A program made the translations under genes and the position numbers. 64,000 nucleotides of DNA from Truepera radiovictrix DSM 17093 (lineage in GTDB: Bacteria; Deinococcota; Deinococci; Deinococcales; Trueperaceae): assembly GCF_000092425.1 (NCBI RefSeq), contig NC_014221.1, forward strand, positions 3,105,001 to 3,169,000. Reading direction: 5' to 3'. The notes under the pieces are model-generated. The model did not search any database, had not been told where the DNA came from, and was given only the letters and a program-made list of their open reading frames with translations. This document shows, piece after piece, positions 1,333 to 13,456 of the stretch (positions are counted from its first letter, which is position 1; every line of letters starts with the position of its first letter).

Positions 1333-2464
1333 GGCGGCGCGCGTCGCCATCGTTCACGACTGGCTCACGGTCTACGCGGGGGCCGAACGGGTTTTAGAGC
1401 AGATGCTGCTGGCGCTCCCGCAGGCCGACCTCTACAGCCTGGTCGACTTTGTGCCCGAGGACGCGCGCGGCTTTCTCGGCGGGCGGCGCGCCCGAACCTC
1501 GTTTCTCCAACGCCTGCCGCGCGCGCGGACGCACTACCGCAGCTATTTGCCGCTCATGCCGCTAGCGGTCGAGCAGTTCGACCTCTCGGGCTACGACCTG
1601 GTGATCTCGAGCTCGCACGCGGTCGCTAAAGGGGTCCTCACGGGCCCCGATCAGCTGCACCTATGCATTTGCTACTCGCCGATCCGCTACGCCTGGGACC
1701 TGCAGCACCAGTACCTGGAGGAGTCGGGCCTGACGCGCGGCGTCAAGGGGGCGGCGGCGCGCCTGCTGCTCCACTACGTCCGGCTCTGGGACGCGCGCAC
1801 GGCAAACGGCGTGGACGACTTTATCGCCATCTCCGGCTTTATCGCGCGGCGCATCCAGAAGGTCTACCGCCGCGACGCGACGGTCATCTACCCGCCGGTC
1901 GACACGGACGGGTTTGCGCTCCGCCCCGACAAGGAGGACTTCTACCTCACCGCCTCGCGCCTGGTCCCCTACAAAAAGATCGACCTCATCGTCGAGGCGT
2001 TTTCGGCGCTCCCCGACCGGCGGCTCGTGGTGATCGGCGACGGCCCCGAGATGGCGAAGGTGCGGGCCAAAGCGGGACCCAACGTGCAGCTTCTAGGCTA
2101 CCAACCCTTTTCGGTTCTGAAAGACCACCTGCAGCGCGCGCGCGCTTTTGTCTTCGCCGCCGAGGAGGACTTTGGTATCGTGCCGCTAGAGGCCCAAGCG
2201 TGCGGCACGCCGGTGATCGCCTACGGCAAGGGGGGGAGCCTCGAGACGGTGCGCGGCCCCGAGGCCGGCGAGGGGGCGACCGGGGTCTTTTTCGAGGCGC
2301 AGACGGTCGCCAGTTTGCAGGGGGCGGTGCGCGCCTTTGAAGCGCAGACCTTTTCGCCGGAGGCGGCGCGCGCGAACGCCGAACGCTTCTCCGTGGCGCG
2401 GTTTCAGGAGGCGTTTGGCAGCTTTGTCGCGGCGCGCTACCGCGCCTTTCACGGCGTCACCTAA
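1319..2464 (+). CDS. GT4-family glycosyltransferase (mannosyl/rhamnosyl-type)
   Basis: A 381-residue GT-B glycosyltransferase. The N-terminus reads [19 protein letters not shown], the acceptor-domain start common in WbaZ-like mannosyltransferases. The C-terminal donor domain has [27 protein letters not shown] and the EX7E signature from Glu283 to Glu291 in [19 protein letters not shown]. It should act at the cytosolic face of the membrane, adding a nucleotide-sugar residue to the lipid-linked repeat unit; GDP-mannose or GDP-rhamnose are natural donors given gmd, rmd and manC nearby. The ATG at 1319 is chosen over an in-frame TTG at 1304 because conserved sequence starts soon after it. Donor specificity is inference. 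Confidence 0.88.
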
Positions 2465-2465
2465 G

Positions 2466-4388
2466 GTGCCTACCCCCCCCACCCCGACGCGACCACCCCC
2501 GACGGGCGAGGTGAGCTGGCTCTGGACCGGTCTGTGGGGCGCCGCGGCGCTGCCGCTCGCGCTCTACGGCGCGCTCTTTAGCGCTTCGCGCGCGGCGGTC
2601 GCGGGGCTCGTGGCGCAGTGCCTGCTGGTGGCCGCGCTCGGCTACCTGCGCCCCCCGACGCGCGCGGTGCGCTGGGGGCTGCTCGCTGCGCTCGCCCTCT
2701 TTCTCGCCGGTGGGCTTCTAGAGGGTGCGCTCGCGCGGGGCGTCTGGCTCTCGTCGGACAAGTCGGGGCTCGCCGAGAGCGTGTCGCAGCGCCTTTACGA
2801 ACGCGTGTCGGGGGTGGGGCGGCGCAGCTGGCACACCGGCGCACACGAGGCGGCGACGCTCAGCTTCGAGGCTCGCCTCGCCGCCGGCCAAGCGGGGTGG
2901 GACTGGGCGCGCTCGCACCCCGGTTTTGAGCTCGAGCCCCTGCGCGACGCGGAGGGGGGCTTTACCCGCATCAGCGCGCCTGCGGGGGTGCGGGGCTACC
3001 TCATGCGCACCTTCGACCTCGGCCAGCCCCTCGGCGGCGAGCTCTTTCGCGTGGTGCTCGAGCTGCGCGACCCGAACGGCCCCCCGCGGCGCGCCCCCCG
3101 CCCCGCGATCGAACGCGGCGAGCCCGTCGGCGCGCGGCGCTGCCGCGGGGTGGCGCTCGCAGCGTGGGCGCCCGGGGGGGGCGGGCGCTGTTTGCCCGTC
3201 ACCCTAGACCGCGAGTGGGCGCGTTACAGCCTCTCGTGGCGGGTGCCCGAGGGGGTCGCGTCGTCCGTGGTGCGGCTTTTTCTCTCCGACTTCGGCGGCA
3301 GCACCCTGGACGTGCGGCGGGTGCAGCTCTACTGGCACCGCCGCCCCGTCGGCCCCCTGATCCCCCAGGGGGCCGCGCTGCAGATCGCGTGGCCGGAGCG
3401 CCCCGAAGCGCACTCGGGGTACGCCTTCGTCCCCACCGAGGTGTGGGAGCGCCACGAACTGCCCCTGACGCGCGGCCCGGCGGGAGAGGGGGTGCTGACA
3501 GCCACCTTGCGCACCGGCAGCGGGCTCGTCGTCGAGACGCGCAACGTCGCACTCACCGCCCCCGACGGCACGCCCTTGCCGGCGGCGGCGAGCAGCCCGC
3601 GGCGGACGCTCGTCTTCGGCGACCCCAACCTCGCGGGGCACACCGCCGCCGCCCTCGGCCTCGCGCTGCTCAGCCTCGCGTCCCCCCCCCTGGCGCTCGC
3701 CGGCGCCCTTGCGAGCCTCCTCAGCGTCGCGCTTACGGGCAGCCGCGCCGCGTGGCTCGGCGTCCTCGTCGGGGTGCCGTGGCTTCTTTTGCTGGCGCTC
3801 GCCCGCGCGCGGCGCACCGGCGCCACCTGGACGCTCCTGGCGCCTTTGTGCGGCGCCGGAGCGCTGCTTCTGGTGACGGCTTGGGGCCCGCTCCAAGGGG
3901 GGGCGCGGCGGATCTTCAGCCTTCACGAGGTGACCGCGCGCAGCGACATCTGGGCGGCGGCTTGGGAGGCGCTGCGCAGCCACCCGCTCCGCGGCCTCGG
4001 GGCGGGCGGCTTCGCCGAGTTCTGGGCGCAGACGCGCGCCGGCGGCGAGGCGGTGCAGCACGCGCACAACGCCTGGCTCGAGCTCTCCGCCGCTTACGGG
4101 CTGTTCGGCGTGGCGGCGGCGCTCATCCTCCTGCTGGGGCTACCCTACGCGGCGTGGCGGCTGCAGGGGGGGCGCGGCGCGGCGCTCGTCGCGGGCGTTT
4201 TCGCGATGAACCTGCTTGACACCACCCTCTTCTACGCGGGGGTGCTGCTCCCCCTCGCGCTCGCCCTCACCGCCCACCCACCCCCTCGAGGGCTCGGCCA
4301 CCGCAGCTTGCAGCGCCCCTCAGTAAATCGGGGCATAATCGGACCGGGGGGGCGCCCCGCGCGTCACCGCCCGACCGACACGCCATGA
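2466..4388 (+). CDS. Wzy/WaaL-like O-antigen polymerase or ligase with large extracytoplasmic insert
   Basis: About 640 residues. GTG 2466 directly follows the stop of the glycosyltransferase; GTG 2511 is an alternative. The N-terminus has about three hydrophobic helices. A soluble block of nearly 290 residues follows, with beta-rich jelly-roll character (for example EWARYSLSWRVPEGV). Then come several helices carrying Wzy_C hallmarks: LTGSRAAWLG, RSDIWAAAWEALRSHPLRGLG and HAHNAWLELSAAYGLFG. Family members polymerise repeat units or ligate glycans on the outer face of the membrane. A typical Wzy has 10-12 helices and no such insert, so the long loop is unusual. The ATGA overlap at 4385-4388 couples it to the next gene, which has a similar insert. 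Polymerase versus ligase cannot be decided from sequence alone. Confidence 0.75.
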   Translation: MPTPPTPTRPPPTGEVSWLWTGLWGAAALPLALYGALFSASRAAVAGLVAQCLLVAALGYLRPPTRAVRWGLLAALALFLAGGLLEGALARGVWLSSDKSGLAESVSQRLYERVSGVGRRSWHTGAHEAATLSFEARLAAGQAGWDWARSHPGFELEPLRDAEGGFTRISAPAGVRGYLMRTFDLGQPLGGELFRVVLELRDPNGPPRRAPRPAIERGEPVGARRCRGVALAAWAPGGGGRCLPVTLDREWARYSLSWRVPEGVASSVVRLFLSDFGGSTLDVRRVQLYWHRRPVGPLIPQGAALQIAWPERPEAHSGYAFVPTEVWERHELPLTRGPAGEGVLTATLRTGSGLVVETRNVALTAPDGTPLPAAASSPRRTLVFGDPNLAGHTAAALGLALLSLASPPLALAGALASLLSVALTGSRAAWLGVLVGVPWLLLLALARARRTGATWTLLAPLCGAGALLLVTAWGPLQGGARRIFSLHEVTARSDIWAAAWEALRSHPLRGLGAGGFAEFWAQTRAGGEAVQHAHNAWLELSAAYGLFGVAAALILLLGLPYAAWRLQGGRGAALVAGVFAMNLLDTTLFYAGVLLPLALALTAHPPPRGLGHRSLQRPSVNRGIIGPGGRPARHRPTDTP

Positions 4389-7300
4389 CCCCGACACCGC
4401 CCCTTTCGACCCCACCCGTGACGCCGACCCGAGACCGCGCCCACGTACCGCTTTTAGCGGTTCTTGGCCGCGGGCTCACCTTCGCGCTCGGCCTCGGCTT
4501 TGCGCTGCTACCCGCCTACGGCCCCTTCGCCGGTCTTTTGCTCCTTCTGCGCGGCCGCCGCGCGCGCTGGTCGCTGCAACGCAGCGACCTCTTATGGTGG
4601 GGCTCGGCGCTGCTGCTCGCCCTGCCGCTGGGGCTGCACGGCGGCCCCTCGGGGTTTCTCTTCGGCGCGGCGCAGGTGCTCGCGCCGTGGCTTATCTTCC
4701 GCGCCTTTTTCCGCCTCCACGGCGCGCGCTTGCGGCTCGAGACGTCCTGGGTGGGCGTCGGCCTGCTCACGGGGCTCGCCACCCTCGTCGCCCTCGGCTG
4801 GCTGCAGGAGGGTTCGGGGGCGCTCGCCGAGCGCGCCGCCGCCCTGATCGGCCCGACGCGCGGCAGCCTCTACGGCCACACCGTCCTCGCTCTGGGGGCC
4901 CTCGTCGCCGTGCTGCTGCGCCGCGGGCGCTACCAGGTCCTGAGCCTCACGCTCTCCGCCTTGGGCGTGCTCATCTCGGGGAGCCGCGAAGCGGCGGTCG
5001 CGTGGCTCGTGGTCGCCGTGGCGCTCATCTTCGTCGGCAAAACCCGCACCCCGCGCAAACGCGCCGCGTTCGGCGCCGCGGTGGGCGTTATCCTCGTCGG
5101 CGCCTCCTTGCTGGGGCCGCTCTTCGGGTGGGGGAGCGCGGGCTTTTTGCTCGACGTCGCGCCACCCCCGGCTGAGGCGAGCCGCAACCTGCTGCAGGGC
5201 ACCGAGGTCGCCAACGGCGACTGGTGGCAAGCGGTCGGGGTGCACGTCGAAGCGCACCCCGTCACGATCGGCGACGCCGCGCTCACCGGCTACCTGCTCA
5301 CCAAGACCGACCCCGCCCCCACCTCGCGGCTGCAGCAGCCGGTGACGCTCGAGGCGGGCGCCACCTACACGCTTAGCGCCTGGCTCCGCCCGGATGCCGG
5401 AGGCCGCCCGGCCCGCGGGGCGCAGCCGGGGTTGCAGGGTTGGGGGCAGCCCCTGGGTGAGGACGAAGCGTTTACGCTCGAGGGCACCCTCGAGGGGGGG
5501 CGCTGGGAGGCCCGCGTCAGCGGCGCCGGCCAGCTGCTCGACGCGGGCGTCTTGGAGACCCGCGGGGCGTGGCGCCGCGTGTACCTCAGCTTCGCCTACG
5601 TCGGTAGCGCGCCGCGCCTCGACGCCTGGGTGGGGTTTGCGCCGGACGCGCGGACGCGCGCGGGTACGCGCGCGATGTTCGCGGGGTTGCAGCTCGAGCG
5701 CAACCTGGCCTCCCCCTACACCCCCGGCGCTCTCACCCAGGGCCTCAGCTTGCAGCGCACCCGCGTCGCCTACTGGCAGACCGCGTGGCGGGGCTTTTTG
5801 GAGTCGCCCCTGTGGGGTCAAGGGGAGCTCTTCCCGCGCTTTTTCCGCGCCACCTGGCCCGACTTCCGGCAGGTGAGCGCCCTGCCCTCGCACGCCCACT
5901 CCCTGCCGCTGCAGCTCCTTTACGAACGCGGGCTTATCGGCTTCGCCGGGCTGCTGCTCTTCGTCGCGGCGCTTACCTCCCACGCCCTGCGCAAGGGCGA
6001 CGCGGCCTTTTTGGTCGTCGTCGCCGCGCTCTTGGTCGCCAACGTGTTCGACACCACCCTCTTTTCCGGCGGGGTGCTCTACCCGCTCGCGGCGGTCGCG
6101 GGGTGGCGCGCGGCCGCCTACCGCTTCGCCCGCACGGGCGAACGCGACTCCGCGACGCGGCAGTTCGGCGTGCGTCTGTCGCTGATGATCGTCGACTTTG
6201 CCGCCGCGACGCTCGCCTTTAGCCTGGCGCTCTGGACGCGGCAGCTCGGTACGCTCTTGGGGATGCCGGCGATCAACCCTTTGGCCGCCTCCCTCGAGGT
6301 CGCCCGCTACGCGCTGCTCTTATGGCCCGTGATGGCCTGGCGCGAGGGGCTCTACCCCGGCTACGGCCTCACCGCGCCGCAGGAGCTGCGCAAGCAGGTC
6401 GTCAGCGCCGCCTACGCGGGGCTTATCCTGGCCGCCGGTACGGTGCTCTTTCGCGTGCAGCTGCCTATCCCCCGCAGCATCTTGCTCCTCACGATCCTCT
6501 ACAGCATGGTGCTCAACCCGGCCGCCAGGGCGCTCACCAAACGCCTGTTGCAGCGCGCTGGGCTCTGGGGGCGCCCCGTCGTCATCCTGGGTGCGGGGCG
6601 AGCGGGGGAGCGCATCGCGCGGGCGCTCGGCCAAAGCCCCCTCGACGGGCTCCACCCCATCGCCTTTTTCGACGACGACCCCGCCAAGCAGGGCCGGGTG
6701 ATCGCCGGGTTGCGGGTGCGCGGCCGCCTCGCCGACGCCGACCGCTACGCCCTAAAGCGCGGCGTGCAGCACGCCATCGTCGCCATCCCGACCGCGACGC
6801 CGGAGCTGCTCGCAGGCCTGATCAACATCCGCGGACGCGTCTTTAAGCGGGTGCAGTTTATCCCCGACTTGGTCAACCTGCCCTCCGAAGGGGTCTACGC
6901 GAGCGACCTCGACGGGCTTTTGGCGCTCGAGGTGCGCCTGGGGCTCTACTCCCGCGCCAACCAGCTCTTTAAACGCGCCGTCGACCTCGTCGGGAGCGTG
7001 CTGGGGGGGATCCTTATCGCCCCCGTGCTGCTCGCGCTGGCGGTGTGGATCAAACTCGACTCCCCCGGCGGCGTCTTCTACTGGAGCACCCGCATCGGGC
7101 AGAAGGGCGCGCCCTTTAAGTGCCTCAAGTTTCGCAGCATGTTCGAAGACGCCGACGCGCGGCTCCAGGAGATGCTCGCGCGCGACGAAGCGGTGCGCGC
7201 CGAGTACGAGCGCTTTCACAAGCTGGAGCGCGACCCGCGCATCACCCGCGCGGGCGCCTTTATCCGCCGCTTTAGCCTCGACGAGCTGCCGCAGCTTTTC

Positions 7301-7567
7301 AACGTCTTTAGGGGGGAGATGAGCCTGGTGGGCCCGCGCCCCTACTTGGTGCAGGAGCTCCCCGACATGCGCGGTTTTCAGGAGACCATCTTGGAGGCCA
7401 AACCGGGGATGACCGGCTACTGGCAGGTCTCGGGGCGGAGCGACGTGACCTTCGAGGAGCGCCTGGTGATGGAGGCGCAGTACGTCCGCAACTGGTCGCC
7501 CTGGTGGGACCTGATCATCTTGGTGCAGACCGTAACGGTGGTGCTGCAGCGGCGCGGGGCGCGTTAG
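4385..7567 (+). CDS. Fusion: Wzy-like polymerase/ligase + WbaP-type phosphoglycosyltransferase
   Basis: One uninterrupted frame of 1060 residues with two complete modules. Residues about 20-565 form a Wzy/O-antigen-ligase-like membrane protein: [11 protein letters not shown], a jelly-roll insert of about 180 residues that ends in [14 protein letters not shown] like many carbohydrate-binding modules, [23 protein letters not shown], then [19 protein letters not shown]. From about residue 580 it becomes a polyprenyl glycosylphosphotransferase: four helices, a Rossmann-like CoA-binding domain ([18 protein letters not shown]), a re-entrant helix, and the catalytic domain with KCLKFRSM, the catalytic pair Asp966/Glu967 in [22 protein letters not shown] and [15 protein letters not shown]. 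The second module transfers a sugar-1-phosphate to undecaprenyl phosphate, the first step of assembly, whereas the first acts at the last step. Having both in one chain is unusual. Confidence 0.88.
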
Positions 7568-7606
7568 CCGGCGCAAGACGTGCGGCAGCGCGCCGCGCGG
7601 GCGGTG

Positions 7607-7612
7607 TAAGGT
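7607..7612 (+). promoter_or_regulatory. Leaderless -10 box of rfbA
   Basis: TAAGGT lies 7 bases before ATG 7620, with no SD sequence between. The spacing implies that the transcript starts at or next to the start codon, so rfbA begins a new transcription unit after the fusion gene. Confidence 0.5.
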
Positions 7613-7619
7613 AGCTCTG

Positions 7620-8531
<912 letters not shown>

Positions 8532-8594
8532 CGGGCGCCTAGCCGCGCCGGGTATCATCGTAAACGCTGCACGCGCAGCCGAGGAGCTCACCCC

Positions 8595-8747
8595 ATGACG
8601 ACGCCCCCGCACCCCCTCAAGCTCGCTTCACGTCCCCATGCACCACCTCCCGGTACGGGTGACGTTGTCACCGACGCCATCACCGACACCATCACCGGGG
8701 TCACCGACGGGGTCACCGTCGCCGTGACGCCCTCGCCGGAGCGATGA
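8595..8747 (+). CDS. Possible small protein with Thr/Val/Asp repeats
   Basis: A 50-codon frame between rfbA and the rfbD-like gene. It has a plausible SD (GAGGAG, 8 bases before ATG 8595) and its TGA overlaps the ATG of the next gene as ATGA, the same coupling used elsewhere in this cluster. The second half is a run of short repeats of the type V-T-D and I-T-D, encoded by near-repeats of GTCACCGAC. I recognise no family. It may be a real small protein, a coupling leader for the rfbD-like gene, or the result of repeat expansion in a spacer. A TATCAT motif at about 8552 could be a -10 box. Confidence 0.35.
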   Translation: MTTPPHPLKLASRPHAPPPGTGDVVTDAITDTITGVTDGVTVAVTPSPER

Positions 8748-9490
8748 CCCGCGGCGCGCGCATCTTGCTGACCGGGGGCAGCGGGCGGCTCGGCCGCGAG
8801 CTGCAGGGGCTACTCGATCTCGTCGCGCCGCCGCGCAGCGAGCTCGACCTCACCCGACCCGACACGATCGCCGGGGCGCTGCGGCGCTACCGTCCCGAAG
8901 TCGTCGTCCACGCCGCCGCCTACACCGACGTGCGGGGCGCCGAGAGCGACCGACGGCGCTGCTGGGAGACGAACGTGGGCGGCACCCGCAACCTCGTCCG
9001 CGCGCTTCTCGCCGCCGGTCACCCCCGCTTGGTGCACATCTCGACCGACTACGTCTTTTATGGCGACCGCGGCCACTACCACGAGGACGACCCCCCCGGC
9101 CCCGTGCGCAACCACTACGCGCTCTCCAAACTCGTCGCCGAAGAGGTCGCCCGCCTCGCCCCGCACCACCTCGTTATTCGCACCTCGTTTCGCCCGCGCG
9201 AGTGGCCCTACGAGACGGCCTTCGAGGACGTCTACACGAGCCAAGACTACGTCGATGTGATCGCCCCCGAGCTCGCACTCGTGCTTAAATATCTGCACGA
9301 CGTGCCCTACGACACCCTCCACATCGCCACGGAGCGCAAGAGTGTGTTCGAGCTCGCCCGGCGGCGGCGCCCCGACGTCCGCCCCGGCCGCAAAGCCGAA
9401 GCGGGGGTCGAGCTCCCCGACGACATCAGCTTGGACACGAGCCGTTGGCGCGAACTGCGGCTCATGCTCGCGGCAAAGGACGCCCTATGA
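8744..9490 (+). CDS. rfbD: dTDP-4-dehydrorhamnose reductase-like protein
   Basis: A 248-residue short-chain dehydrogenase of the RmlD/SDR type. Seen: ILLTGGSGRLGREL (cofactor loop), VVVHAAAYTDV, STDYVFYG and the catalytic motif NHYALSKLVAEE. RmlD reduces dTDP-4-keto-rhamnose to dTDP-L-rhamnose. At 248 residues it is shorter than the usual 280-300, and the C-terminal substrate-binding part is divergent, so it might act on a related keto sugar. It is the only reductase candidate in the rfb set. It overlaps the rfbC-like gene by ATGA at 9487-9490. Confidence 0.8.
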   Translation: MTRGARILLTGGSGRLGRELQGLLDLVAPPRSELDLTRPDTIAGALRRYRPEVVVHAAAYTDVRGAESDRRRCWETNVGGTRNLVRALLAAGHPRLVHISTDYVFYGDRGHYHEDDPPGPVRNHYALSKLVAEEVARLAPHHLVIRTSFRPREWPYETAFEDVYTSQDYVDVIAPELALVLKYLHDVPYDTLHIATERKSVFELARRRRPDVRPGRKAEAGVELPDDISLDTSRWRELRLMLAAKDAL

Positions 9491-10080
9491 CCCACACCCC
9501 CAAAGACCCCCGCCCACCCGCGCCGGAAGCCGCGGCTTCCGGCGCGACCCAGCTCTCGGCGCGCGCCCAGGCGGCGCTCACCTTCCAGGTCTACGCCCCC
9601 CCCACCGAGATCGCGGGGGTGTGGCTCAAACCGCTTAAAAAGCACCGCGGCGACAACGGCGCCTTTATGGAGTACCTGCGCCTCGATGAAGGCGCCGCCG
9701 AAGGCCTCCCCGCGCCCTTTACCGTGCGGCAGCTGAGCGTTTCACACGCCCAACCGGGGCGCATCAACGCCTTTCATATCCACCCCCGCGAACCGCAAAA
9801 CGAGCTCTGGACGGTGATCCAAGGCCAGCTCAAGGTCTGGCTCGTCGACCTGCGCGCAACGTCGCCGACCGAGGGCAACAAGCGCGCCTTTATCCTCTCC
9901 GGCGAGGAGCCCGCGCAGCTCTTCGTCCCGGCGGGGGTCGCGCACGGCTACCAGGCGGGGCCGGAGGGGGCGCTGCTGCTCTACACCATGGACCAGCAGT
10001 TTAACGCCGAGCACCCCAACGAGGGTCGGCTCCCGTGGGACTTTTTCGGCGCCGAGCTGTGGGCGGAGGATCGCGGCTGA
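9487..10080 (+). CDS. rfbC: dTDP-4-dehydrorhamnose 3,5-epimerase family protein (cupin)
   Basis: A 197-residue cupin. The first 35 residues are Pro/Ala-rich and probably disordered. The core contains INAFHIHPREPQNELWTVIQGQLKVWLVDLR, then LFVPAGVAHGYQAG and LLLYTMDQQFNAEHPNEGRLPW, which match the RmlC family in order and spacing. The usual RGLHYQ catalytic block is replaced by NAFHIHP: the His is kept but the surroundings differ, so activity as a double epimerase is likely but not certain. It sits between the reductase and the dehydratase, overlapping each by 1-4 bases. Confidence 0.8.
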   Translation: MTHTPKDPRPPAPEAAASGATQLSARAQAALTFQVYAPPTEIAGVWLKPLKKHRGDNGAFMEYLRLDEGAAEGLPAPFTVRQLSVSHAQPGRINAFHIHPREPQNELWTVIQGQLKVWLVDLRATSPTEGNKRAFILSGEEPAQLFVPAGVAHGYQAGPEGALLLYTMDQQFNAEHPNEGRLPWDFFGAELWAEDRG

Positions 10081-11120
10081 TGGCCCCGGAGGGGCGCTAC
10101 CAACGGGTGCTCGTCACGGGTGGGCTCGGTTTTATCGGCTCGAGCTACGTCCGCTTGCTGCTCACCGAAACGGCGCTCGAGGTCGTCAACTTAGACCTCA
10201 TGACCTACGCCGCGCACCCCGAGACGCTGCAGGAGCTGACGAGCGACCCGCGCTACGCCGCGCGCTACACCTTCGTCAAGGGCGACATCGCCGACCCCGC
10301 GGTGGTGCGGCGCGCGCTGGAGGGGTGCGACGCGGTGGTCAACTTCGCCGCCGAAACCCACGTCGACCGCTCCATTCACGACGCCGCCCCCTTTGTGCAC
10401 ACCAACGTCGAAGGGGTCCGGGTGCTTTTGGACGCGGTGCGCGAGGCCGCCAGGGAGCGCCCCGTGAGGTTCGTCCACGTCTCCACCGACGAGGTCTACG
10501 GCGAGGTCTTAGAGGGGCTCTCCCGCGAGGACGACCCCTTTCGGCCGCGCAGCCCCTACAGCGCCTCCAAAGCGGGGGGCGACCTGCTAGTCGGGGCGTA
10601 CGGCGTCACCTACGGCCTCGACACCGTCGTCACGCGGGGCTCGAACAACTACGGTACGCACCAGTTCCCCGAGAAGATCATCCCGCTCTTTATCACCAAC
10701 GCGCTCGACGACCAGCCGCTGCCGGTCTACGGGACGGGCAAGGCCATTCGCGACTACATCTTCGTCACCGACCACGTGCGCGGGATTCACGCCGCGCTCC
10801 TGCGGGGGCGGCGCGGCGAGGCGTACAACCTCGGCGGGCAGAACCAAACCGACGGTTTAAGCGTCGCGCGCACCATCCTCGACGCGCTCGGCAAACCGCA
10901 CACGCTCATTCAGCACGTCCAAGACCGCCCCGGCCACGACCTGCGCTACGCGCTCGACATCACCAAAGCGACGCGCGAGCTCGGGTGGCGTCCCACGGTA
11001 ACCTTCGCCGAAGGGATCGCGCAGACGGTGCGGTGGTACCAAGAGCACCCCGACTGGTGGCGCCCGCTCAAGGCGGCGCAAGCCGCGTTCTTCACGCAGC
11101 AGTATGCCCAACGATCCTGA
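10080..11120 (+). CDS. rfbB: dTDP-glucose 4,6-dehydratase
   Basis: A 346-residue extended SDR, normal length for RmlB. Seen: VLVTGGLGFIGSSYVR, NFAAETHVDRSI, the STDEVYGE block with the catalytic Thr-Asp-Glu, YSASKAGGDLLV (Tyr/Lys pair), NNYGTHQFPEKIIPLF and VYGTGKAIRDYIFVTDH. It converts dTDP-glucose to dTDP-4-keto-6-deoxyglucose. ATG 10080 overlaps the rfbC stop (TGATG), so I prefer it to the upstream ATG at 10035, which would add 15 non-homologous residues. Confidence 0.95.
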   Translation: MAPEGRYQRVLVTGGLGFIGSSYVRLLLTETALEVVNLDLMTYAAHPETLQELTSDPRYAARYTFVKGDIADPAVVRRALEGCDAVVNFAAETHVDRSIHDAAPFVHTNVEGVRVLLDAVREAARERPVRFVHVSTDEVYGEVLEGLSREDDPFRPRSPYSASKAGGDLLVGAYGVTYGLDTVVTRGSNNYGTHQFPEKIIPLFITNALDDQPLPVYGTGKAIRDYIFVTDHVRGIHAALLRGRRGEAYNLGGQNQTDGLSVARTILDALGKPHTLIQHVQDRPGHDLRYALDITKATRELGWRPTVTFAEGIAQTVRWYQEHPDWWRPLKAAQAAFFTQQYAQRS

Positions 11121-11195
11121 CGGGATGCCGGGGGCGCCCGCGGCCCTGCCGCGGCGCCCGGAAGCCGCGCCTTACCAGAAAACCGCGACAGCGGT

Positions 11196-11201
11196 TACAC
11201 T
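11196..11201 (+). promoter_or_regulatory. Leaderless -10 box of uppS
   Basis: TACACT is 7 bases before GTG 11209. It lies inside the longer open frame beginning at 11104 and argues that GTG 11209 is the true start. Confidence 0.55.
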
Positions 11202-11208
11202 AGAGGGC

Positions 11209-12036
11209 GTGGCCGCCCCGCCGCACCACCCCGCCCTGCACCGCGCGCTTAGCCTTTGGAAGGCGCTGACTGCGCCCCTTTACTGGCTCTACGAAGAGCG
11301 GCTCGAGCGCAGCGTCCGCAGCGGCAGCCTGCCGCGTCACATCGGGCTCATCATGGACGGCAACCGCCGCTTCGCCCGCAGCGTCGGCTTAGACGTCACC
11401 GCGGGGCACGACTACGGCGCCGGCAAGGCGCGCGAGGTGCTCGAGTGGTGCTTTGAGCTCGGCATCCCGCACGTGACCCTGTGGGGTTTTAGCACCGACA
11501 ACCGCGGGCGCGCGCAGAGCGAGGTGTCGCACCTGCACAGCCTCTTCGCCAGACAGGCCAAGGAGATGGTGCAAGACCCCAAGATCCACCGCAACCGCGT
11601 GCGCGTGCGGGTGATCGGCGACATCGGCGACTTTCCACCGGAGGTCCAGGCGGCGCTACGCGAGGTCGAGCGGGCGACCGAGCACTACGACAAGATGCAG
11701 CTCAACGTCGCGGTCGGCTACGGCGGCCGCGAGGAGATCGTCGCGGCGGTGCGCAACCTGCTGCGCGACGAGGCGCACGCCCACCTGCGCCCCGCCGAGC
11801 TGGCCGAACGGGTGAGCGCCGACACCATCGGCCAGCACCTCTACACCGCTGGCGTCCCCGACCCCGACTTCATCATCCGCACCTCGGGGGAGGTTCGGCT
11901 CTCCGGCTTTCTCTTGTGGCAAGCCGCCTACAGCGAGTACTACTTCTGCGACGCCTTCTGGCCGAGCTTTCGCAAAGTCGACTTTTTGCGGGCGCTACGG
12001 AGCTACCAGGCGCGCGAGCGGCGCTTTGGCAAGTGA
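11209..12036 (+). CDS. uppS: Undecaprenyl (polyprenyl) diphosphate synthase
   Basis: A 275-residue cis-prenyltransferase. Seen: LPRHIGLIMDGNRRFAR with the catalytic Asp50, GHDYGAGKAREVLEWC, TLWGFSTDN, and near the end PDFIIRTSGEVRLSGFLLWQ with the substrate-binding Arg residues, then YSEYYF. The enzyme extends farnesyl diphosphate with isopentenyl diphosphate to make the C50-C55 carrier used for cell-wall and exopolysaccharide units, fitting its place in a glycan cluster. An N-terminal amphipathic segment (LWKALTAPLYWLYEERLE) precedes the core, as in some actinobacterial homologues, and may sit on the membrane. GTG 11209 is favoured by the adjacent -10 box; the longer frame from 11104 would add 35 unlike residues. 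Confidence 0.93.
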   Translation: MAAPPHHPALHRALSLWKALTAPLYWLYEERLERSVRSGSLPRHIGLIMDGNRRFARSVGLDVTAGHDYGAGKAREVLEWCFELGIPHVTLWGFSTDNRGRAQSEVSHLHSLFARQAKEMVQDPKIHRNRVRVRVIGDIGDFPPEVQAALREVERATEHYDKMQLNVAVGYGGREEIVAAVRNLLRDEAHAHLRPAELAERVSADTIGQHLYTAGVPDPDFIIRTSGEVRLSGFLLWQAAYSEYYFCDAFWPSFRKVDFLRALRSYQARERRFGK

Positions 12037-12418
12037 GGGGGGTGTTTGGGGGTGGCGCGACCCCATCGCGACGGTGAGGCGTCCAGGGCGGGCGACAGAA
12101 AGCTCGTCAAAGACCCCGTCACCGAGCTGTGCGCCGACGCCACCCCCTTGAAGGGCGTTAAAAACGACGTAAGATGAGCTTCGTTGCCGCGCCGCTAACC
12201 CTTACGGCGCACCGCGGGGCGATGGTCGCTCCCCGTGCCGACCAACGCCCGCAAGGACCTTCGGCGCTACCGGGCGTTGTGAAACGCAGCAAACGTTGTG
12301 GCGCGCGCGTCTGATACGTTGGGCGAAGCTCGTCGGGCGCCGTCGCGTCGGCCGCCCCCCACAGGGGTGGCTGACGCGGGGGCGCGGCGCAAAGCGCGGT
12401 GTAACCAAAGGAGGAGAC
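12037..12418 (+). other. 382-bp intergenic region before manC
   Basis: No convincing gene. It contains a promoter-like pair at 12148-12175 and a 46-codon frame from ATG 12174 that overlaps the -10 box and has no SD; I do not treat that frame as a gene. If the promoter is used, manC has an untranslated leader of about 235 bases. Confidence 0.5.
12148..12175 (+). promoter_or_regulatory. Promoter for manC
   Basis: TTGAAG and TAAGAT are separated by 16 bases. Unlike most genes here, this promoter lies far (about 240 bases) from a start codon that has a strong SD. Confidence 0.45.
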
Positions 12419-13456
12419 GTGTTCGTCGCGGTCATTATGGCAGGGGGGCGCGGGCAGCGCTTCTGGCCTCTTTCAACCGAAGACAAACCCAAGCAGTTTT
12501 TGGACCTCGAAAAGAGCGGTCGCACCCTGATTCAGTCCACGCTCGACCGCCTGGTGCCGCTCACGGGCGGCGTCGAGCGGGTGTTCGTCATCACCGGCGA
12601 ACGCTACCAGGCGCTCGTGCACGACCAGCTGCCCGAGCTGCCCCACGAAAACATCATCCTAGAACCCGTCGGGCGGGACACGGCGCCCGCCGTGGCGCTC
12701 TCCGCCCTCGAGATGCGCGCCCGCTTCGGCGACGTCGTCATGGGGCTCTTTACCGCCGACCACCGCGTCGGCAACGTCCCGAGCTTTCAGGGGGCGGTCA
12801 GACGGGCGATCTCGGTGACCGAACAGACGCGCGGCCTCACCACCCTGGGCGTCAAACCGACCTTTCCGGCGACCGGTTACGGCTACATCCAGGCGGGGGC
12901 ACCGGTCGGCGCGGGCTTTAAGGTCAACCGCTTCGTCGAAAAACCCGACGCCCGCACCGCCGAGGCCTATCTGCAAAACGGCGGTTACTACTGGAACAAT
13001 GGCATCTTCGTCTGGCACACCTCGACCATCTTGGAGGAGTTCGCCAAGCACGCGCCGAATATCCTCACCCCGCTCGAGGCGGCCCACGCGGGCGGCATGG
13101 TCGCCGAGGTGTTCCCCAAGATCGAAAAGATCAGCATCGACTACGCCGTGCTCGAGAAGACCGACAAAGCCTACATGGTCGTCGCCGACTACGACTGGGA
13201 CGACTTAGGCGACTGGCTGGCGGTCGAGCGGCACCTGGGTAAAGACGAAGCCAACACGGTCGTCGGCGCGCACGTCGGGCTTGACAGCCAGGGCAACGTC
13301 ATCTACTGCGACGACGAAAACGCCACCATCGTCACCATCGGCGTCGAGGACATGATCATCGTCAAACGGGGCGACACGGTCTTGGTCACGCGCAAAGACC
13401 GCGCGCAGGACATCAAGAGCGTGCTGCAGCGGCCCGAGTTGGCGAAGAAGGGTTAG
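12419..13456 (+). CDS. manC: Mannose-1-phosphate guanylyltransferase
   Basis: A 345-residue single-domain enzyme. Seen: the nucleotidyltransferase loop MAGGRGQRFWPLS, KPKQFLDLE, ILEPVGRDTAPAVALSAL, ATGYGYIQ, FVEKPD, YYWNNGIFVWH and YAVLEKTDKAYMV. It makes GDP-mannose from GTP and mannose-1-phosphate, feeding gmd and rmd at the start of the window. The C-terminal phosphomannose isomerase domain found in bifunctional ManC is absent. GTG 12419 is chosen because AAAGGAGGAG ends 3 bases before it and the conserved strand begins at residue 2. Its stop overlaps the stop of the convergent lipoprotein gene (TTAG at 13453-13456). Confidence 0.95.
   Translation: MFVAVIMAGGRGQRFWPLSTEDKPKQFLDLEKSGRTLIQSTLDRLVPLTGGVERVFVITGERYQALVHDQLPELPHENIILEPVGRDTAPAVALSALEMRARFGDVVMGLFTADHRVGNVPSFQGAVRRAISVTEQTRGLTTLGVKPTFPATGYGYIQAGAPVGAGFKVNRFVEKPDARTAEAYLQNGGYYWNNGIFVWHTSTILEEFAKHAPNILTPLEAAHAGGMVAEVFPKIEKISIDYAVLEKTDKAYMVVADYDWDDLGDWLAVERHLGKDEANTVVGAHVGLDSQGNVIYCDDENATIVTIGVEDMIIVKRGDTVLVTRKDRAQDIKSVLQRPELAKKG

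Follow-up and report, generated by a model that had tools for sequence, protein, structure and literature searches.

The fusion gene and its neighbourhood

The stretch of DNA analysed (the window) comprises 64,000 nucleotides of Truepera radiovictrix DSM 17093 (contig NC_014221.1, positions 3,105,001 to 3,169,000). It contains an open reading frame on the forward strand whose stop-free translation of 1060 amino acids holds both a WaaL/Wzy_C-type module and a WbaP-type phosphoglycosyltransferase (PGT). The context of this fusion gene is a heteropolysaccharide cluster. Genes for a Wzz/GNVR protein, a UDP-sugar dehydrogenase, a GT2 glycosyltransferase, a 464-aa Wzy_C protein, a GT4 glycosyltransferase and a GDP-mannose dehydratase (locus L035) are found ahead of the epimerase, and from the epimerase onward the order is as follows, with window coordinates, strand and basis of assignment.

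178–1332, +, NAD-dependent epimerase/dehydratase (profiles)
1304–2464, +, glycosyltransferase family 4 (profile)
2337–4388, +, companion: stand-alone WaaL-fold Wzy_C protein, 683 aa, with a CBM-like insert at residues 185–335 (profile, model, fold)
4385–7567, +, fusion gene, WaaL/Wzy_C-type module plus WbaP-type phosphoglycosyltransferase, 1060 aa (translation)
7620–8531, +, RmlA (profile)
8744–9490, +, RmlD, short (profiles)
9445–10080, +, RmlC-like (profiles)
10035–11120, +, RmlB (profile)
11104–12036, +, UppS, undecaprenyl diphosphate synthase; the genome's only copy (profile, genome search)
12296–13456, +, mannose-1-phosphate guanylyltransferase (ManC)-like (profiles)

The ATG of the fusion gene overlaps the stop codon of the companion Wzy_C gene upstream (ATGA). 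The companion protein matches the WaaL fold with a Z of 19.7 using a model whose pLDDT was only 69.5, and it keeps all three of the WaaL residue equivalents described below (8/8 relatives). Its CBM4-like insert lies in a different periplasmic loop from that of the fusion protein. The RmlD protein is 248 aa long and is matched by the RmlD profile over its N-terminal half only; proteins of similar length occur in related clusters. In three other genera (L037, L039 and L043) the gene immediately after the fusion is that for UppS. No Wzx-type flippase was found within the cluster, and MOP-family proteins are encoded elsewhere in the genome.

Domains of the fusion protein

An AlphaFold2 model of the fusion protein was built on 20 relatives (mean pLDDT 83.5) and its structure matches were computed with VIA-align. 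Profiles and fold matches divide the protein into two modules, WaaL-type at residues 24–582 and a complete WbaP-type PGT at residues 588–1060. Within the gene the features are as follows.

4454–5113, +, WaaL-type module, membrane helices predicted ahead of the periplasmic loop, residues 24–243 (AlphaFold2 model, fold match 7TPG)
4985–4987, +, Arg201, aligned with Arg191 of WaaL (7TPG) (alignment; kept in 10/20 fused proteins)
5174–5707, +, carbohydrate-binding-module-like beta-sandwich in the large periplasmic loop, residues 264–441 (AlphaFold2, fold matches, CBM_4_9, NF048003)
5747–5953, +, Wzy_C core, residues 455–523, with Arg460 (WaaL Arg265), His503 and His505 (WaaL His313) (Pfam, alignment)
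5903–6130, +, WaaL-type module, final three of the predicted membrane helices, residues 507–582 (AlphaFold2 model)
6104–6196, +, junction, Trp574 to Asp604 (AlphaFold2 model, alignment)
6146–6949, +, large-PGT four-helix bundle in the membrane, with the cytosolic Rossmann-like domain (CoA_binding_3), residues 588–855 (Pfam, model, fold)
6971–7549, +, monotopic PGT catalytic domain (Bac_transf), residues 863–1055 (Pfam, fold)
7280–7285, +, Asp966-Glu967 catalytic dyad (translation, alignment)

The N-terminal half had been described as Wzy/WaaL-like throughout, and the Wzy_C and WaaL signatures were indeed found by both profile and fold searches. Pfam places Wzy_C at residues 455–523 with 46 bits against a cut-off of 31.7, and this profile matches all 21 of the modules tested with E 0.01 or better. 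Residues 24–582 align with WaaL (7TPG) with a Z of 21.6 and an rmsd of 5.0 Å over 330 residues, and the module profile against 7TPG gave an E of 4.7e-10. Counting along this profile alignment, which is how the WaaL residue equivalences were numbered, Arg460 corresponds to WaaL Arg265 and His505 to WaaL His313, while Arg201 corresponds to WaaL Arg191 in a weaker segment of the alignment. All three equivalents are present in the T. radiovictrix protein. Across the family His505 is invariant (21/21), as is Arg515, and Arg460 is kept in all but one. Half of the fused relatives have Leu, His, Gln or Gly at the Arg201 position, and the neighbouring Glu is kept in every fused relative. In the related PglS the aligned histidine has been assigned as catalytic, and arginines have been given roles in the entry of substrate and the handling of pyrophosphate (PMC12800693).

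The Wzy-like label does not, however, cover the whole of the N-terminal half. Residues 264–441 form a separate CBM-type beta-sandwich which had been missed, and which is placed in the large periplasmic loop ahead of the WaaL active-site residues. This domain fold-matches CBM16, CBM22 and CBM4 with Z of about 11–13 and also resembles a phage fibre domain, 9B45, with a Z of 16.6; the term CBM-like is used here for fold likeness, and as phage fibres share the same fold it does not imply sugar binding. The Pfam family CBM_4_9 matches two family members, with a best E of 1e-4. One relative (L012) is without the CBM-like domain.

In the C-terminal half Pfam places CoA_binding_3 at residues 661–812 and Bac_transf (PF02397) at residues 863–1055; both matches exceed the cut-off, the latter with 207 bits against 27. 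The NCBIfam model for WbaP, TIGR03022, scores 449.5 bits over residues 600–1060 against a cut-off of 403, but this is a subfamily model and the match is no proof that galactose is the sugar. Residues 588–1055 align with WbaP (8T53) with a Z of 29.5 and an rmsd of 3.7 Å over 394 residues. Asp966 and Glu967, named earlier as the catalytic pair, sit in the motif SLDEL and are conserved in every intact family member. The PGT active site is intact. The D-x12-P motif of the re-entrant helix is also found (Asp867 and Pro880), with the proline shifted by one in some relatives. Pfam and NCBIfam profiles together with the fold matches to 7TPG and 8T53 thus bear out the presence of both modules named in the preliminary description.

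With WbaP of S. enterica (8T53) the fusion protein shares the four-helix bundle, the cytosolic Rossmann-like domain and the monotopic catalytic domain with its Asp-Glu dyad. Unlike WbaP, which stands alone, its first WbaP helix is preceded by a 580-residue WaaL-type module. This module in turn resembles WaaL of C. metallidurans (7TPG/7TPJ) and the Wzy_C family, which includes the O-oligosaccharyltransferases, in its fold, in the equivalents of His313, Arg265 and Arg191 and in the Wzy_C profile, but the CBM-like insert in the periplasmic loop and the PGT partner set it apart from them.

Junction and topology

In the model, nine helices of the WaaL-type module are read as membrane-spanning; these are followed by the periplasmic insert and then by three helices ending at residue 582. 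The first WbaP helix begins at residue 587, making the junction a short helix-turn-helix. The segment from Trp574 to Asp604 is 28–31 residues long in the 20 fused proteins and variable in sequence. As a positive-inside check, the share of Lys plus Arg was 24% in the predicted cytosolic loops versus 6–8% in the periplasmic ones, a bias that fits a WaaL active site outside and a PGT active site inside. Both modules would start and finish in the cytosol, and joining them should therefore need no topological change.

Distribution of the fusion

The in-frame junction was found in 20 of 39 Trueperaceae genomes, covering 14 of the 17 genera, and one relative (G014) has the fusion gene in two copies (contigs C165 and C58). 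If the join were a sequencing error then homologues split near residue ∼570 might be expected; none was seen in Trueperaceae, nor were the two halves found as adjacent separate genes in any family member. The same in-frame junction in 20 independent assemblies excludes chance or a sequencing error, and the probability that an assembly or sequencing error joined two genes is negligible. The fusion is genuine rather than artefactual. A stop codon that seemed to lie inside the G037 homologue was rejected as its position precedes the G037 start codon and is outside the gene.

The earlier claim that the halves are made as one polypeptide agrees with the uninterrupted 1060-aa reading frame and with the in-frame junction across the 14 genera. 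They might still be joined only at the level of the gene, if the product were cleaved or if the PGT half were also made from an internal start. This is very improbable. None of the in-frame start codons at residues 564–650 is preceded by a Shine-Dalgarno-like motif, and no internal start is conserved among the relatives; in the AlphaFold2 model two membrane helices are linked at the junction by only a short loop.

Stand-alone large PGTs occur in two of the Trueperaceae genomes, G007, where one is found besides a fusion, and G012, where the gene is uninformative as a 100-N gap immediately precedes it. The rest of the Deinococcota (72 genomes) have the same PGT as a stand-alone protein only, mostly of about 480–610 aa. 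The idea that the fusion might be spread across the Deinococcota was therefore not upheld; in the searches it is confined to Trueperaceae, while other families carry stand-alone PGTs. Among the neighbourhoods read in Deinococcota outside Trueperaceae, six (L049, L051, L053, L092, L094 and L095) have a stand-alone Wzy_C gene abutting or overlapped by the PGT gene, and the order there is PGT then Wzy_C, opposite to that in the fusion.

A pattern scan for the junction region in 84,980 species genomes found no fusion beyond Trueperaceae, the other matches being stand-alone PGTs, and a junction profile found none in 246, 247 and 395 genomes (about 890) of three other phyla; these searches rely on sequence similarity to the Trueperaceae family, and unrelated Wzy-PGT fusions would escape them. 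The profile matches in the three phyla covered one half only, or were weak matches to part of the junction that failed on reading. In G204, an actinobacterial genome, a frame of 1116 aa was rejected as read-through of apparently non-coding high-GC sequence before an ordinary PGT.

Evolutionary history

Trees were built for the Wzy_C domain, from which very long branches were removed beforehand, and for the two parts of the PGT. The fused Wzy_C domains form one group in the Wzy_C tree, and the membrane and Rossmann-like part of the PGT also groups the fused proteins; both groups have an SH-aLRT of 89, which is moderate support. The fused Wzy_C domains, together with the stand-alone copy from L038 and the PGT-adjacent Wzy_C domains of other Deinococcota, stand apart from the remaining Wzy_C (SH-aLRT 91). 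Thus the Wzy_C proteins encoded next to PGT genes outside Trueperaceae are nearer to the fused domains than other Wzy_C are.

The tree of the PGT catalytic domain, by contrast, splits the fused proteins, and a single clade was rejected (delta lnL 84.6, p-AU 4.5e-5). The catalytic domains of L007, L009, L011, L013 and L019 (‘type B’) group with stand-alone PGTs. These trees are most simply read as a single old fusion, after which the catalytic domain was replaced at least once while the fusion was retained. Repeated exchange is not required. The five type B proteins are still allowed as a single clade in the Wzy_C tree (p 0.34) and in the PGT-membrane tree (p 0.11), so one exchange is enough. 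These five proteins have a different PGT catalytic subfamily on a common membrane part, and the exchange perhaps altered the first sugar.

Possible function of the fusion protein

The results suggest, with fair confidence, a two-faced membrane enzyme in which initiation inside and terminal glycan transfer outside are held at a fixed distance. The C-terminal WbaP-type half at the cytosolic face would transfer hexose-1-phosphate onto undecaprenyl phosphate, starting a glycan repeat unit. The N-terminal WaaL-type half at the periplasmic face would use the finished undecaprenyl-PP-glycan as donor and ligate it to an acceptor or polymerise it, with the carbohydrate-binding-like domain beside the active site probably holding the glycan. 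The last helix of the WaaL half leads, by way of the short fixed junction, into the PGT's first helix. The halves would thus stay adjacent in a 1:1 ratio, tying the newly started chains in space to the machinery consuming them.

It is most likely that both halves are active and that the fusion ties initiation to terminal transfer. We infer that the two halves act on one and the same glycan, and that their linkage is important in regulating or co-localising use of the carrier. Coupling of chain start to release is plausible. The preliminary description had gone further in calling the two modules the first and last enzymes of repeat-unit assembly; the modules are there, but a polymerase or ligase role in the same pathway was assumed. 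As the cluster holds two further Wzy_C proteins, the N-terminal module may be a ligase or a polymerase, with a preference here for ligation to an acceptor. The two other Wzy_C proteins could do ligation and polymerisation by themselves, which counts against a two-faced enzyme.

Undecaprenyl-PP released outside needs dephosphorylation and flipping before it can be used by the PGT inside. Direct recycling or channelling of substrate between the halves was rejected on these pathway grounds, and since the PGT cannot directly use undecaprenyl-PP on the outside, simple channelling would be a poor reason for the fusion. The main rival to a tie between initiation and transfer is that fixed stoichiometry and co-localisation are all that the fusion provides, both enzymes working with no signal between them. 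Simple co-localisation explains the data as well as signalling does, it is sufficient to account for the conservation of the fusion, and it has not quite an even chance of being the whole explanation. It sits well with the neighbouring split genes of other Deinococcota and with the bifunctional PGTs (Bi-PGTs) as a recognised class (PMC10942596). The near-constant length of the junction and its short helix-turn-helix suggest instead that geometry matters, though this may be a simple folding constraint.

It is considerably less probable that the protein provides feedback across the membrane, the occupancy of the WaaL half by glycan-lipid outside setting the rate of initiation by the WbaP half inside and so protecting the undecaprenyl phosphate pool. 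On the basis of Salmonella genetics, Hong and Reeves (2016) put forward a model in which WaaL informs WbaP of the amount of undecaprenyl-PP-linked material outside (PMC4863624), and so concerns just this pair of activities. What they proposed as an interaction of separate proteins would be a covalent link in T. radiovictrix. The fixed junction, the CBM-like domain in the periplasmic loop and the replacement of the PGT catalytic domain while the fusion was not lost would all be in keeping with feedback; the 2016 model is itself a hypothesis, however, and the CBM-like domain is absent from L012. A precedent for a large PGT under post-translational control by a partner exists in EpsW-EpsZ of M. 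xanthus (PMC12802240), although the partner of EpsZ is a cytosolic response regulator and not a periplasmic transferase.

With the Arg191 equivalent lost from 10/20 fused proteins, catalysis by the WaaL-type half may not extend to all of them, and in part of the family this half might be a non-enzymatic, glycan-binding scaffold for the PGT. The same residue is kept in 8/8 of the companion Wzy_C proteins. Against a scaffold, which we consider unlikely, are the invariance of His505 and Arg515 and the retention of Arg460 in all but one member, and in T. radiovictrix all three WaaL residues are kept.

Relation to known systems

Cells have to balance the initiation of lipid-linked glycans against their use if the shared undecaprenyl carrier is not to become trapped, and how they do so is an open question in the field. 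Among PGT fusions, partners also include glycosyltransferase and polytopic PGT domains, and the PNAS paper of O'Toole et al. from 2021 is reportedly the key survey. Sugar-modifying and regulatory domains have been reported as partners (PMC12802240). The T. radiovictrix protein falls within the definition of a Bi-PGT, in which a monotopic PGT carries an additional functional domain (PMC10942596), and differs from those found in the papers searched in that the partner is a periplasmic-face WaaL/Wzy module and the fused PGT is a large one. No description of a WaaL/Wzy partner of a PGT was found in the open-access papers searched, in agreement with the earlier statement that no protein of such architecture had been described; the fusion would add a new partner class to the Bi-PGTs.

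No report of a physical link between WaaL and WbaP was found in the open-access literature either, though a signal from one to the other has been proposed. A natural fusion of the two, kept across the family despite exchange of the catalytic domain, is gene-fusion evidence for such a link. It is also a single purifiable protein in which control of the first step of the pathway by the last can be tested. If feedback were true then the Hong and Reeves link would have been made covalent, in a cluster whose single UppS makes the limited undecaprenyl phosphate.

Lipid A genes

Deinococcota are usually regarded as lacking LPS. The T. radiovictrix genome has lpxC, lpxA, lpxD, fabZ, lpxB-like and msbA-like genes. 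A lipid A cluster at 3086–9265 of locus L106 (contig 356000–374000) comprises MsbA-like, LpxB-like, LpxA, FabZ, a Gfo/Idh oxidoreductase and LpxC. The same LpxC search gave no hit in the control genomes, those of Thermus and Deinobacterium. With these genes present, lipid A or an LPS-like molecule is a possible acceptor for a WaaL-type ligase. LpxD (residues 629–961) is found inside a 974-aa reading frame at 9343–12267 (−) of L106, behind a region resembling an exported S55 peptidase. This frame is another unusual fusion, or else it consists of two genes that lack an intervening stop.
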